A program made the translations under genes and the position numbers. 64,000 bases of DNA from positions 1-64,000 of the forward strand of contig WRPG01000024.1 in assembly GCA_009773355.1 (NCBI GenBank). The letters are read 5' to 3'. The stretch comes from Limisphaerales bacterium. GTDB taxonomy: Bacteria; Verrucomicrobiota; Verrucomicrobiia; Limisphaerales; SXTU01. This document shows, one piece after another, positions 59,841 to 64,000 of the stretch (positions are counted from its first letter, which is position 1; every line of letters begins with the position of its first letter). The notes under the pieces were generated by a model. That model ran no database searches and was not told the origin of the DNA. It saw only the letters and a program-made list of their open reading frames with translations.

Positions 59841-61358
59841 CTACGGCTCCAGGAAATCAAACACCGCCAGCCGCCCGCCGTCCTCCAAGGACAGCAGCAC
59901 GCGCAGGCCGGGCGTGAGTTCCACCGCGTGGCCGTGCCGGAGGTAGTCCGGCTGGTCCACGAGCAGCATGTCGGCGTTGCTCTGGTTCACGAGATACCAC
60001 TTGTCCTGATGGAAGGTGAAGTAGCCCACGGTGTCGCGCTTGGCGTCCAGCGGCGAGACGTTCGAGCGCGCGTGCCAGGGGTAGAGGTATTGCCCGTTCC
60101 AGACCGTGAGCGCGTGCTCGTCGTCCTTGAAGTCCAGCGTGTCGCTGCCGGGGCGTTTGATGTGCCGGAGGAACGTCGCCACGGGCACGGGCGCGGCGAG
60201 CTTGCGCTTGCTGAACGGGCATTCCAGCGGCAGCCCCTGCGCGACGATGAACCAGTTGTGCCCGTCGGGGCTGGGATGAACCAGGTCGAGCGTCTTCTGC
60301 AAACCCTTCTCCCATTCGCTCGCCGAGGCGCGCAGGTGCGGCGCGTGCAGGCCGACCACGAACGTCTTGATGAAGAGCTTCTCCAGATACGGCCCGAGCC
60401 GATGCGCGGAAATCTCCGGTGGCGGCTTCAACCGGTTGCTCGGGTCGTTGGGATGCTCGATGTAAAGCGCCTGCGCGCCCATGCTCAACAGATCGTCCTC
60501 CTCCGGCGACCGCGTGCTCCGCACCTTCGGCCCCGCGAGCGGATGCCGCAGCAGCAGGCTCTCGTAAATCAGCACCGCCAGCGCGTGCAGGTCCGTCTCG
60601 ATGCTCGGCTGCTTCTTCCCGGCCACGACTTCCGGCGCGATGTAGCCCGGCGTGCCCATCACCGTCGGCGGCGCGAGGCCGGGCACCACGAGCGAGTCAC
60701 AGTCAATCACGCTCGCGTCGCCGTGCTTCGGGTCAATGAGCACGTTGTTGTGCGACAAGTCCGAGTGCGCGAGGCCGGCGAAGTGCAGGCGGCGCACGGC
60801 GCTGGCCATCACGGAGCAGCACTGGAGGTAGCGCAGCAGGTTGCCGCGCTCCTCCTCGGGCACGAGCTTGCGCGACTTCGCGCCCGTGAACCACCGGCCC
60901 TTCTTCTCGCGCGTGTTGCCGGTGCGGTCCTTGAAGAAGAAGTTGCTGCGATATGCCGGCACCACGACGCCGAGCACGGGCCGGTGGAGGTTGTGCCGCT
61001 TGATGAAGTCGGCGGGCAGCGTGGGGTCGTTGTCAATGATGCCGACGGGCCAGCAGAAGTGCTTGCGCCAGTAATCCGACTGCGCGCCGCCGATGGTCGG
61101 GTTGTAGGGGCCGAGGATTTTCTCCAGGCGACGTCGGCGCTCGCCGGGGTCATTGACGTGCCCGAAGAAGAACGCGACGACGTGCTGCTTGTCCTTGGTG
61201 AAGAAGACAATTTTCTCGCCGCCGGATGCGAGGGGTTCGCTGTCGAACTCCACCGTGCTGCCGTCCGTGAGCTTGGCGCGGAGAAACTTTTGCTGCGGCG
61301 CGCCAGGCAACGGCGGCGGCGCGGGCGGCGGGGGCTTGGGTTTGGAGAGAAGAGCCAC
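59841..61358 (-). CDS. Ser/Thr protein kinase-like protein with C-terminal FHA-like domain
   Basis: 505 residues from GTG at 61358; the in-frame codons before it are repeat sequence, so the ATG at 61436 is unlikely. A proline-rich start leads to a kinase domain (about 25-310): GGEKIVFFTKDKQHVVAFFF, catalytic HSDLSHNNVLID, VIDCDSLVVPG in place of DFG, and VMGTPGYIAPEV. The last 90 residues (DTVGYFTFHQDKWYLVNQSN ... LTPGLRVLLSLEDGGRLAVF) look like an FHA-like beta-sandwich. It follows the PP2C gene on the same strand. Kinase plus phosphatase plus VWA is the makeup of the TerY-P triad; I infer that context. Confidence 0.8.
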   Translation of the reverse strand: MALLSKPKPPPPAPPPLPGAPQQKFLRAKLTDGSTVEFDSEPLASGGEKIVFFTKDKQHVVAFFFGHVNDPGERRRRLEKILGPYNPTIGGAQSDYWRKHFCWPVGIIDNDPTLPADFIKRHNLHRPVLGVVVPAYRSNFFFKDRTGNTREKKGRWFTGAKSRKLVPEEERGNLLRYLQCCSVMASAVRRLHFAGLAHSDLSHNNVLIDPKHGDASVIDCDSLVVPGLAPPTVMGTPGYIAPEVVAGKKQPSIETDLHALAVLIYESLLLRHPLAGPKVRSTRSPEEDDLLSMGAQALYIEHPNDPSNRLKPPPEISAHRLGPYLEKLFIKTFVVGLHAPHLRASASEWEKGLQKTLDLVHPSPDGHNWFIVAQGLPLECPFSKRKLAAPVPVATFLRHIKRPGSDTLDFKDDEHALTVWNGQYLYPWHARSNVSPLDAKRDTVGYFTFHQDKWYLVNQSNADMLLVDQPDYLRHGHAVELTPGLRVLLSLEDGGRLAVFDFLEP

Positions 61359-61364
61359 GAGGTT

Positions 61365-61506
61365 AAGCTCCAAGTTCCAAGCTCCAATGACCAAAGAAGC
61401 TCCAAGCTCCAAGCTCCAATGTCTCGACACGCACACTACGCCCTTCGGTTTGGAGGTTGGGATTTGGAGCTTCTTTGGTCATTGGAGCTTGGGATTTGGG
61501 ATTTAG
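61365..61506. repeat. CTCCAAG heptamer hairpin between phosphatase and kinase genes
   Basis: The arms contain an exact 24-bp match (61381-61404 with 61465-61488, GCTCCAATGACCAAAGAAGC..), flanked by tandem CTCCAAG units and their inverse, with a loop of about 60 nt. It occupies the entire intergenic gap. Confidence 0.93.
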
Positions 61507-63413
61507 AAAATCACGTTCCCCGGCAGCCGGTGCAGCACGGCCACGGTGCGGTCGTCGTTCTCACCGCGCTTCTCGAACTCCAGCCATTGCGCCAGTCCCC
61601 ATGCGGCGGACTCCTGCAGCAGCGGTGCGAGTTGCAGCAACTGCGCCTTGAAGTCCGGCAGCGGCTGGTCCACGCCCGTGTAGAACTGGCGGAAGATGGC
61701 AGTGGCCTTTTTCTCCAGCGGATAGAACGGGTCTTCGATGCCATCGCTGCACAGGAGCACACACTCCACCGCCGCGACATCGCTGATGACCTCCACGGCC
61801 TTGGCCTTGACGCGCGCGCAATCGTCGGGGACGAAGCAACTGACCTCGCCGCTGTGCGTGCCGCTGTCGCTCGCGCCGAGGCGGGCGGTGGATTTGTCTT
61901 TGCGGAGGAGGCAAATCGCGCCGTCGCCGATTTGGTTCGTCAGGAGCAGTTCGTGCTGCTCGCCGCGATAGTGCAGCGCAGTGAGGAGCGTGCAGCGGAA
62001 GTCCTTGGGCGCGCAGCCGGACTTCTTCGCCAACTCCACGAGCGCGTCCGTCGCGGCGATGGCGGCGGCGGTGACTTGCGCGGAGAGAAAATCCTTCAAC
62101 TTCGTCGCATCGGTGGCGATGGCGGAATCCACTTTCTCGGTCGCAGCGAGGAGAAACTCCACCACGCGGTGCGCGGCGACGTGGCTGCCGATGCGGCTGT
62201 GCTGGCAACTGCCCGCGCCGTCGGAGACGCACAGGACGGTCGCGCGGTCGTGGGCATCGAAGGCGAGGGAATCCTCGCGGTGCGTGCCGCCGTTGGCATG
62301 CATGCGTCCGCGTCGCGACGCGCCCGCCGCGCGCCAGCCGGGGAGCACGCGCTCGAACGCGACGGCGTCGGTGGCGGCGATGCGTTTGAGTTCCGGCGCG
62401 TGCGGTGCGATGGCGGGCGGACACCACGGCTCCTTGGCCGGGAGATTCTTCCAAGTGGCGGGCTTGGGAGGCGTGGTGGGGGCGGGTGCCGGGTTGGGAG
62501 TCCCGCCTTTAGGCGGTGGGGACGCCGCGCCGCCTGAAGGCGGGACTCCATGCGGGACGTTGGCGGTCGAGCGCGCCCCCTCTCCCTCGGAGGGAGAGGG
62601 CTGGGGTGAGGGTGAAGACGTGGGAGTCTTGGTGGATGCGGATGCAACAGAAGTAGGTGGCCGCTCTCCCTCACCCCGTCCCTCTCCCGCTGGGAGAGGG
62701 GGGGCGCTCGCGGCCGGCTGTGCGGGCGCTGCCTTCACCTTGTCCGCCGGGGCGGAGACGACGGCGGTGGCCGGGACGGTCACGGCGATGGTGGGGGCCT
62801 GGAGTTTGACCTCCTCGCGGGGGATGAAGACCGTGGCACCGGATTCCGCGATGTTGGGTGGGAGCTTCGCTGGACGGTCGGGGGCGGCGGAGGCGGGGGA
62901 ATTGGGATTCGCGGGGCCGGATTTTGCCTCTGCGGCGGGGGAATTGGCCTCTGCTGTGCCAGAAATGGCTCGTGCGGCGGTAGAAATGGGGTCTGCGGCG
63001 CTGGAAATCGCTCGTGCGGCACCAGAAATCGTATCTGAGGCGGGGGAACTGGCACGCGCGGCACTAGAATTGGCCTCTGCGGCGGTCGGATTCGGGTCTG
63101 AGGCGGTCGAAATGGGCCGTGAGGCGGTGGAATTGCGGTCTGAGGCAGCCGCAGAAGCCTTTTCTGCCGCCGCAGACGGCATTCCTGCCGCCTCCTGTCT
63201 CACATTGTGTGCCGCATGTCCCACTTCGTGTGCCGCAGACGCCTTTCCAGCGGGTTCATTTGGCACACTTGCCGTCCCCGACGGCTTTTCGACCGGCGCA
63301 GACGCGTTCCCTGCTGGCGCGGGCGGCTTCGCAGCGGCATCAGCGGGCTGGGGAACGGCAGCTTTGTCATCGGCTGGCTTGTCGGCCTTGGGTTTGCGGA
63401 ACCAGTCAAGCAT
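61503..63413 (-). CDS. PP2C-family protein phosphatase with long low-complexity N-terminal region
   Basis: 636 residues. The C-terminal 260 form a PP2C domain: GRMHANGGTHREDSLAFD, VLCVSDGAGSCQHSRIGSHV (metal-binding DG), LLCSDGIEDPFYPLEK and ENDDRTVAVL. The first 360 are Ala/Ser/Pro-rich. Residues about 85-175 are a 7-residue repeat (ASDxxS TA/SA type) encoded by 21-bp DNA units. Two palindromic repeats are also translated (PLPAGEGRGEGE / PSPSEGEGA, and PPSGGAASPPPKGG). It is predicted to dephosphorylate Ser/Thr targets of the downstream kinase. The N-terminus MLDWFRKPKADKP is probably genuine. Confidence 0.85.
   Translation of the reverse strand: MLDWFRKPKADKPADDKAAVPQPADAAAKPPAPAGNASAPVEKPSGTASVPNEPAGKASAAHEVGHAAHNVRQEAAGMPSAAAEKASAAASDRNSTASRPISTASDPNPTAAEANSSAARASSPASDTISGAARAISSAADPISTAARAISGTAEANSPAAEAKSGPANPNSPASAAPDRPAKLPPNIAESGATVFIPREEVKLQAPTIAVTVPATAVVSAPADKVKAAPAQPAASAPPLPAGEGRGEGERPPTSVASASTKTPTSSPSPQPSPSEGEGARSTANVPHGVPPSGGAASPPPKGGTPNPAPAPTTPPKPATWKNLPAKEPWCPPAIAPHAPELKRIAATDAVAFERVLPGWRAAGASRRGRMHANGGTHREDSLAFDAHDRATVLCVSDGAGSCQHSRIGSHVAAHRVVEFLLAATEKVDSAIATDATKLKDFLSAQVTAAAIAATDALVELAKKSGCAPKDFRCTLLTALHYRGEQHELLLTNQIGDGAICLLRKDKSTARLGASDSGTHSGEVSCFVPDDCARVKAKAVEVISDVAAVECVLLCSDGIEDPFYPLEKKATAIFRQFYTGVDQPLPDFKAQLLQLAPLLQESAAWGLAQWLEFEKRGENDDRTVAVLHRLPGNVIF
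62497..62549. repeat. GGAGTCCCGCCTTTAGGCGG hairpin inside the phosphatase gene
   Basis: Arms at 62497-62516 and 62530-62549 pair except for one or two bases, with a 13-nt loop. It is in frame in the low-complexity linker. Confidence 0.88.
62576..62704. repeat. CTCTCCC...GGGAGAGGG double palindrome inside the phosphatase gene
   Basis: CCCTCTCCCTCGGAGGGAGAGGG-type and CCCTCTCCCGCTGGGAGAGGG-type hairpins flank inverted GGTGAGGGTGA/TCACCC segments. The same element occurs at 63704-63841. Similar elements are widespread in GC-rich bacteria. Confidence 0.85.
62884..63177. repeat. 21-bp tandem repeat encoding a 7-residue repeat
   Basis: About 13 diverged units of the form GCCTCTGCGGCGG..GAA.TG, period 21 bp, in the phosphatase gene. 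Read on the minus strand they give xxSxAxx heptads. Units differ at third and variable positions, so the array is old rather than freshly expanded. Confidence 0.88.
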
Positions 63414-63703
63414 GGCGGGGACGGAGGAAGCTTGCTCCCGGAGGGAGCGGGGAACTTAGTCGGGGGCAAGGCGAGCCGAGGCGAGCCGACGCCCTCGGAA
63501 CCGTCCGCAAGGGCAGGCGCACCCCGGCAGGGGTGCCGGCGACGGCGGACAAGGCGGGTCCGGCGTCCCTCCGGGACGCGACTTCAAAAGGGGGCGCATA
63601 CCGGGGGCGGCGGCCTGCGGCCTTGCCCCCGGCTAAGTTCCGCTGGCCCTCCGGGCCGGGGAAAGCGCGGTGGCTGCAGGATGTGCATGGGCGGAAGTGG
63701 CCG

Positions 63704-63841
63704 TTCTCCCTCACCCTAGCCCTCTCCCGCTGGGAGAGGGGATTCGCGCTGGAGCGGCGGAAGCTGGCGGTGCTCCCTCCGACCCGAGGCGGACGGACGC
63801 CCTCCCTCGCCCAGCGGGAGAGGGCCGGGGTGAGGGAGAAG
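63704..63841. repeat. Long CTCTCCC palindrome upstream of the phosphatase
   Basis: The left arm (TTCTCCCTCACCCTAGCCCT..) and right arm (..GAGGGCCGGGGTGAGGGAGAA) pair over about 38 bp; each contains a smaller CTCTCCCGCTGGGAGAGG hairpin. It is the same family as at 62576-62704. Confidence 0.88.
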
Positions 63842-63876
63842 ACGTGGACTGTCGAACGGCGTCCGAAGGGAGAAGT

Positions 63877-63900
63877 GAGACTTCTCACGTCGTCACCTAC
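63877..63900. repeat. Single arm of the GTAGGAGACGACG family
   Basis: GAGACTTCTCACGTCGTCAC followed by CTAC, a diverged match to the right arms at 40730-40753 and 47007-47028. Confidence 0.75.
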
Positions 63901-63941
63901 GAAAAAGGAGAGAGTTGCCCACGGATGAAGTGCGAACCCAC

Positions 63942-64000
63942 TCATTGTCCAAATAGTCTGCTCCAGAAGCTCTTGGGCTTGGCAGCGGCTTCGACAGGCG
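63942..64000 (-). CDS. C-terminus of a protein cut by the window edge, possibly a VWA (TerY-like) protein
   Basis: Only 18 residues are visible, ending AAAKPKSFWSRLFGQ and a stop. A low-complexity stretch followed by a basic, aromatic KSFWSRLFGx tail is common at the end of VWA/TerY-like proteins. The position ahead of a PP2C gene and a kinase on the same strand fits the TerY-P triad. The domain itself is outside the window, so this is a guess from context. Confidence 0.4.
   Translation of the reverse strand, partial: PVEAAAKPKSFWSRLFGQ

Follow-up and report, generated by a model that had tools for sequence, protein, structure and literature searches.

The window, that is, the whole stretch of DNA analysed here, comprises bases 1-64000 of contig C88 (64,735 bp) from a draft genome of 6.16 Mb. 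At its right-hand end, a PP2C phosphatase gene is directly followed by a protein kinase gene on the reverse strand, and a further ORF is cut by the edge:

59841..61358 (-), protein kinase of TerY-P type (505 aa), starting at a GTG within an ORF that is open as far as 61436; named from its Pfam Pkinase match, its full-length relatives and a structure model (pLDDT 91.8); kinase domain at about residues 26-360, then a degenerate zinc ribbon, then an all-beta C-terminal domain
61503..63413 (-), PP2C phosphatase of 636 aa; its N-terminal linker is long and rich in Ala and Pro
61665..62312 (-), PP2C catalytic domain, residues 368-583, from the Pfam match
63943..64000 (-), 3' end of an ORF for 207 aa that runs on to contig position 64566, as read from the 735 bases past the window

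The preliminary description of this DNA placed a PP2C gene beside a kinase-like gene, and Pfam bears this out, with matches above the cut-off for both (Pkinase, 4.7e-13, for the ORF at 59841-61436; PP2C_2, 6.8e-29). The metal-binding and catalytic motifs of the phosphatase (RED, SDGAGS, GDGA, SDGIED and NDDRT) are all present. For the kinase, the sequence points to the GTG at 61358, and not to 61436, as the most likely start, because a dispersed palindromic repeat covers the opening 26 codons of the ORF and conservation begins at 'MALLSKP'. This repeat (61364-61505), which prolongs the ORF upstream and misleads start calling, is one of two near-perfect palindromes of about 130-140 bp that lie between genes here (the other is at about 63703-63840); both belong to families that are multicopy across the genome. 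A dispersed palindromic repeat of this kind is also found in frame within the linker of the phosphatase, at about 62497-62710 (PPLPAGEGRGEG...SPSPQPSPSEGEG), so that a repeat element has been turned into protein sequence.

The third gene of the triad

The protein truncated at the right edge had been taken to end like a VWA protein. Extension of the sequence rules this out, as the complete protein has no VWA domain in its 207 residues, a result that the preliminary description had itself counted as refuting; it gives no convincing Pfam match either and is an unrelated insert. An ORF between the VWA and PP2C genes is present in this genome only, and among 58 genomes searched, homologues of the protein occur in just one other (G015, where the main copy contains stops). 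The idea of a VWA protein as the third member of the triad does survive, but with a TerY-like VWA gene that lies one gene further along.

Beyond the insert, the end of C88 encodes the 19 C-terminal residues of this protein (VPAEGIALPPPPPQIVIHP). In another genome of the genus (G010), the same tail closes a 230-aa VWA protein that starts with MSVRRLPVYILADCSGSM (Pfam VWA, 2.8e-12), and residues 1-217 of the VWA protein are encoded in our genome at the end of a second contig, C120. The two contig ends share exactly 20 bp, in frame, within the VWA gene, which adjoins the same arginine-decarboxylase-like gene (named by eye from the sequence) on C120 and in genome G008. From this overlap and the shared neighbour, the triad is present and very probably complete in this genome, in the order VWA-PP2C-kinase with the insert between VWA and PP2C, the VWA gene being joined across two contigs and not read through. 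The DxSxS part of the MIDAS motif is present in the TerY-like VWA protein, as DCSGSM. TerY-type VWA proteins close with a conserved proline tail, ALPPPPPQIVIHP here (L009:4678-4734) and LPPPPPEVNVVL in IncHI2 TerY, which is perhaps a docking peptide.

Active site and C-terminal domain of the kinase

Five features of the kinase were located from alignments and from the model:

61212..61214 (-), Lys49, the first residue of beta2 and proposed to be the catalytic lysine in a migrated position; Lys in 36 of 36 relatives, Gly, Ser or Ala in six outgroup kinases
61173..61175 (-), Ala62 at the beta3 position of the usual kinase lysine; Ala, Gly, Gln or Cys in 36 of 36 relatives, Lys in 6 of 6 outgroup kinases
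60696..60761 (-), catalytic loop Asp200 (H-S-D-L-S-x-x-N) to D219-C-D221, which replaces DFG; key residues invariant in 37 of 37
60195..60281 (-), degenerate zinc ribbon, CPFS versus C-x4-C...CPFC, as seen when aligned to ribbons that are intact in other phyla
59844..60209 (-), all-beta C-terminal domain, residues 384-505, from the secondary structure of the model; FHA-like by eye

The catalytic region was described as atypical, with CDSL instead of DFG. CDSL is indeed present, but it was read one residue off: the segment is D219-C-D221-S-L, the first Asp of DFG is retained as D219, and the change is from DFG to DxD. This DxD is common to all kinases compared (37 of 37 in the family and 6 of 6 in the outgroup, E. 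coli YegI and other TerY-P kinases included). H198, D200, N205, D219 and D221 are invariant in all 37 family members, and the Glu of the APE motif is invariant across phyla. The equivalent of PKA Lys168 is Ser in the family, and the alpha-C Glu is not conserved.

Going by the alignments, the CDSL is just part of the TerY-P DxD, and the main oddity of the active site is one that the preliminary description missed, a migrated lysine. Every family member covering the region (36 of 36) has Lys at position 49 and never at 62, and the six outgroup TerY-P kinases show the reverse. A first AlphaFold model, built from 10 close sequences, had a pLDDT of 39.7; remade with 36 diverse sequences, it reached a pLDDT of 91.8 and a pTM of 0.89. 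In the latter model, residue 49 is the first of beta2 (49-54) and beta3 spans residues 59-64.

WNK and POMK likewise have no beta3 lysine and carry a lysine at the start of beta2, a likeness of workings and not of membership. In POMK, this lysine forms a pair with the second Asp of the motif DLD; without the lysine the enzyme is inactive, and activity returns when a lysine is reinstated in beta3, as in K93G/S108K (PMC5142810). POMK thus shares the DxD motif with the kinase here, and also lacks the alpha-C Glu. It differs in that it phosphorylates sugar and has no usual HRD motif, whereas the kinase here has HSD, and the lysine swap probably arose independently of that in WNK and POMK. By analogy with POMK, the kinase would be active, its Lys49 standing in for the beta3 lysine and forming a pair with the second Asp of the DxD, Asp221.

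A 2025 review lists the motif pattern VVA-, HSDLSYKN, DVD ('Yegi1') among the pseudokinases and discusses WNK and POMK for other families only (PMC12599244, table 1). The pattern of the kinase here (VVA-, HSDLSxxN, DxD) is the same, and this match, together with the lack of a beta3 lysine in 36 of 36 relatives, would fit a true pseudokinase, i.e., a nucleotide-sensing or docking scaffold that unites VWA and PP2C without phosphotransfer. We consider this unlikely, if still worth serious attention: HxD, N205, D219 and the APE Glu, which a dead kinase would not need, are invariant across phyla, the new lysine is equally invariant, and a phosphatase always adjoins where the contig allows. Because the human kinases WNK and POMK, which are built alike, are active, the label of pseudokinase is doubtful for the Yegi1 type, and we read the protein here as a migrated-lysine kinase. 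From the same analogy, we infer that ter-type kinases in general may be active enzymes with a migrated lysine.

The C-terminal domain was called FHA-like. Residues 384-505 are all-beta in a confident part of the model (block pLDDT mostly 93-97), but the kinase C-terminus has no FHA sequence match in Pfam or PDB, and an alignment of 18 C-terminal domains contains no conserved motif of phosphothreonine-binding residues (Gly-Arg, Ser-x-x-His). In Foldseek and VIA searches with the whole model, the matches listed were all to kinase domains. On the model, an FHA-like fold or an OB fold is possible. A profile comparison of this domain with that of the membrane protein described below gave a weak match (E 0.074) and was set aside.

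Relatives of the triad and the absence of ter genes

Kinases of the genus are 91-97% identical to ours and those from the order's other families 60-66%, and wherever contigs allow, the VWA, PP2C and kinase genes are collinear, both within the genus and in further families of Verrucomicrobiota. A scan of 84,980 genomes found full-length kinase relatives in Gemmatimonadota, Planctomycetota, Thiotrichales and Bacillota, and many of these have PP2C and VWA genes collinear with the kinase. One could argue that the triad is an accident of position, as the dispersed repeat parts kinase from PP2C and the insert parts PP2C from VWA in this genome; that the genes are chance neighbours is, however, refuted by the same order in other families and phyla and by gaps of about 10 bp between triad genes at two loci (L061 and L087), and we give it practically no credence.

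Relatives that share this system are recorded under names such as Pedosphaera and Verrucomicrobiales. Several MAG records from the same genus or order (L076, L077, L078, L079 and L084) are titled 'Proteobacteria bacterium', 'Klebsiella pneumoniae' or 'Akkermansia muciniphila', and these titles look wrong. At one reduced locus (L064, genome G039), the VWA and the C-terminal domain of the kinase are kept and the kinase domain and PP2C are missing; a GYF plus FGE-sulfatase protein adjoins the freestanding C-terminal domain. A HlyD-like gene downstream of the kinase in members of the genus (L054, L055 and L058) was considered as a partner and rejected, as it is not seen at the other loci read.

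On plasmids, a tblastn search with the kinase as query matched 2,354 records, of which 2,189 cover at least 80% of the query; a phage collection yielded one partial match only. Four plasmid loci were opened and all four are ter clusters, with the kinase gene coming after VWA, TerD-family, TerY-C protein and PP2C genes. Our kinase can be aligned with those of the ter clusters from one end to the other (39-40% identity, about 95% of the length covered), and identities are 53% between the VWA protein and IncHI2 TerY and 27% between the PP2C domain and ter-cluster PP2C. At the level of sequence, this end-to-end alignment is evidence of membership, beyond mere resemblance. Two things strongly support the proposal of a TerY-P-like kinase/PP2C/VWA triad: these orthologues from genuine ter clusters, and the recovery of the VWA gene.

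The triads of the plasmid ter clusters (E. coli IncHI2A plasmid pEC21Z063-110K-NDM5, and plasmids of Aromatoleum, Azospirillum and Caballeronia) have the same gene order, the migrated lysine and the DxD. By contrast, the locus here has no TerD or TerX genes and no TerY-C match, a degenerate zinc ribbon, one VWA gene against two or three in the plasmid clusters, and the 207-aa insert gene. The chromosomal YegL-PphC-YegI genes of E. coli also encode VWA, PP2C and kinase in the order seen here; YegL is a clear VWA homologue and YegI carries a DxDS motif. Unlike the kinase here, YegI keeps the beta3 lysine and has a different C-terminal half, and its match is weak (E 0.002).

The check for ter-like genes that the preliminary description proposed came out negative. 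There is no ter-like neighbour here, and TerD (PF02342) was found in 0 of 97 genomes of the genus and order, with matches in the positive-control genomes, absences that are weakened by MAG incompleteness. A TerY_C search for TerY-C gave no match in this genome, nor in any control genome. TerD often occurs in the same genome as related triads from other orders and phyla. In orthologous kinases, the kinase domain is followed by a zinc ribbon, C-x4-C...CP[FYWH]C; three of the four cysteines of this ribbon are lost in this clade (CPFS). The loss maps to one branch with a support of 100/100, Gemmatimonadota sequence included, and no TerD was found in the searched genomes of this ribbon-loss clade. 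Since the loss is derived on a single branch, the locus is a TerY-P variant and not a full typical member. The triad here is decoupled from tellurite genes.

These data bear on two further explanations. The presence of orthologues within ter clusters, and of a TerC-family gene by the triad in one Bacillota relative (L088), would agree with a functional module for resistance to tellurite or oxyanions, with effectors other than TerD; with TerD absent from the genus and order and no ter-like gene next to the triad, we find this very improbable. We see equally little to recommend an antiphage defence module akin to the stand-alone TerY-P-like defence systems. Links between TerY-P triads and restriction systems are on record, and TerY-P-like modules whose kinase carries an OB-fold confer protection from phage (PMC11090510), but the triad here is conserved in the genus and related families, and the loci read have no defence genes beside them, with McrBC-type, nuclease and helicase genes all absent. 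PADLOC is silent on the triad; because it is equally silent on ter-cluster controls, this carries no weight on the question of defence.

A candidate membrane partner and the proposed signalling route

A membrane protein is encoded near the VWA gene in two relatives (L062 and L087). Within the order, it is present in 16 of 16 genomes with triad genes and in 0 of 20 without; counted by family, the figures are 5 of 5 versus 0 of 20, with a Fisher p of 1.9e-5 that overstates the case because families share ancestry. The protein consists of an N-terminal hydrophobic segment, a DUF2135-like domain (a weak Pfam match, below the cut-off), several hydrophobic glycine-rich segments and a conserved C-terminal region. 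Our genome has two copies in tandem on contig C157, not beside the triad. One of them (L171:5704-8535, 944 aa) has a VWA domain inserted mid-protein, and its neighbour is a plain copy. A homologue from a cyanobacterium (41% across the membrane and C-terminal half) carries a VWA at the same place, and its gene is clustered with genes for VWA, FHA, PP2C and FHA-kinase proteins. Other DUF2135-like matches on plasmids (Paenibacillus, Vagococcus and Bacillus) have no triad nearby.

With TerD proteins absent, we propose the DUF2135-like membrane protein as the candidate, and probable, output of the switch, in an orientation and through a phosphorylation that we infer. The explanation that we favour, with moderate confidence, is that the locus encodes an active TerY-P phospho-switch that has been freed from the tellurite genes and signals to this membrane protein. 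The PP2C would undo the phosphorylation carried out by the kinase, and the VWA protein, via its metal site, would act as a docking or sensing subunit. The output would probably reach the membrane protein, with its DUF2135-like or VWA domain, transmembrane segments and conserved C-terminal region, and the role is likely to be in envelope or metal-stress signalling and not in tellurite resistance. Against this stands the fact that the partner lies apart from the triad here, and the co-occurrence may partly reflect shared ancestry.

A bolder proposal, which we hold tentatively and would put somewhat short of even, is that the ter-cluster kinases, which occur on thousands of enterobacterial plasmids and are decoupled from ter genes here, form a bacterial family of active with-no-lysine kinases that invented the WNK/POMK site independently and have been wrongly listed as pseudokinases, and that in Verrucomicrobiota their signal goes to a DUF2135/VWA protein anchored in the membrane, in place of TerD proteins.

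As a triad-only lineage without TerD or the zinc ribbon, these bacteria would present the signalling switch of the tellurite cluster reduced to its core. Through the lysine swap (K49 versus residue 62), mutation can show directly whether a kinase type now counted as dead is in fact alive, and it can do so too for the kinases with matches in more than 2,000 sequenced plasmids. As for the output of the triad, the membrane protein inherited along with it would be the first candidate.
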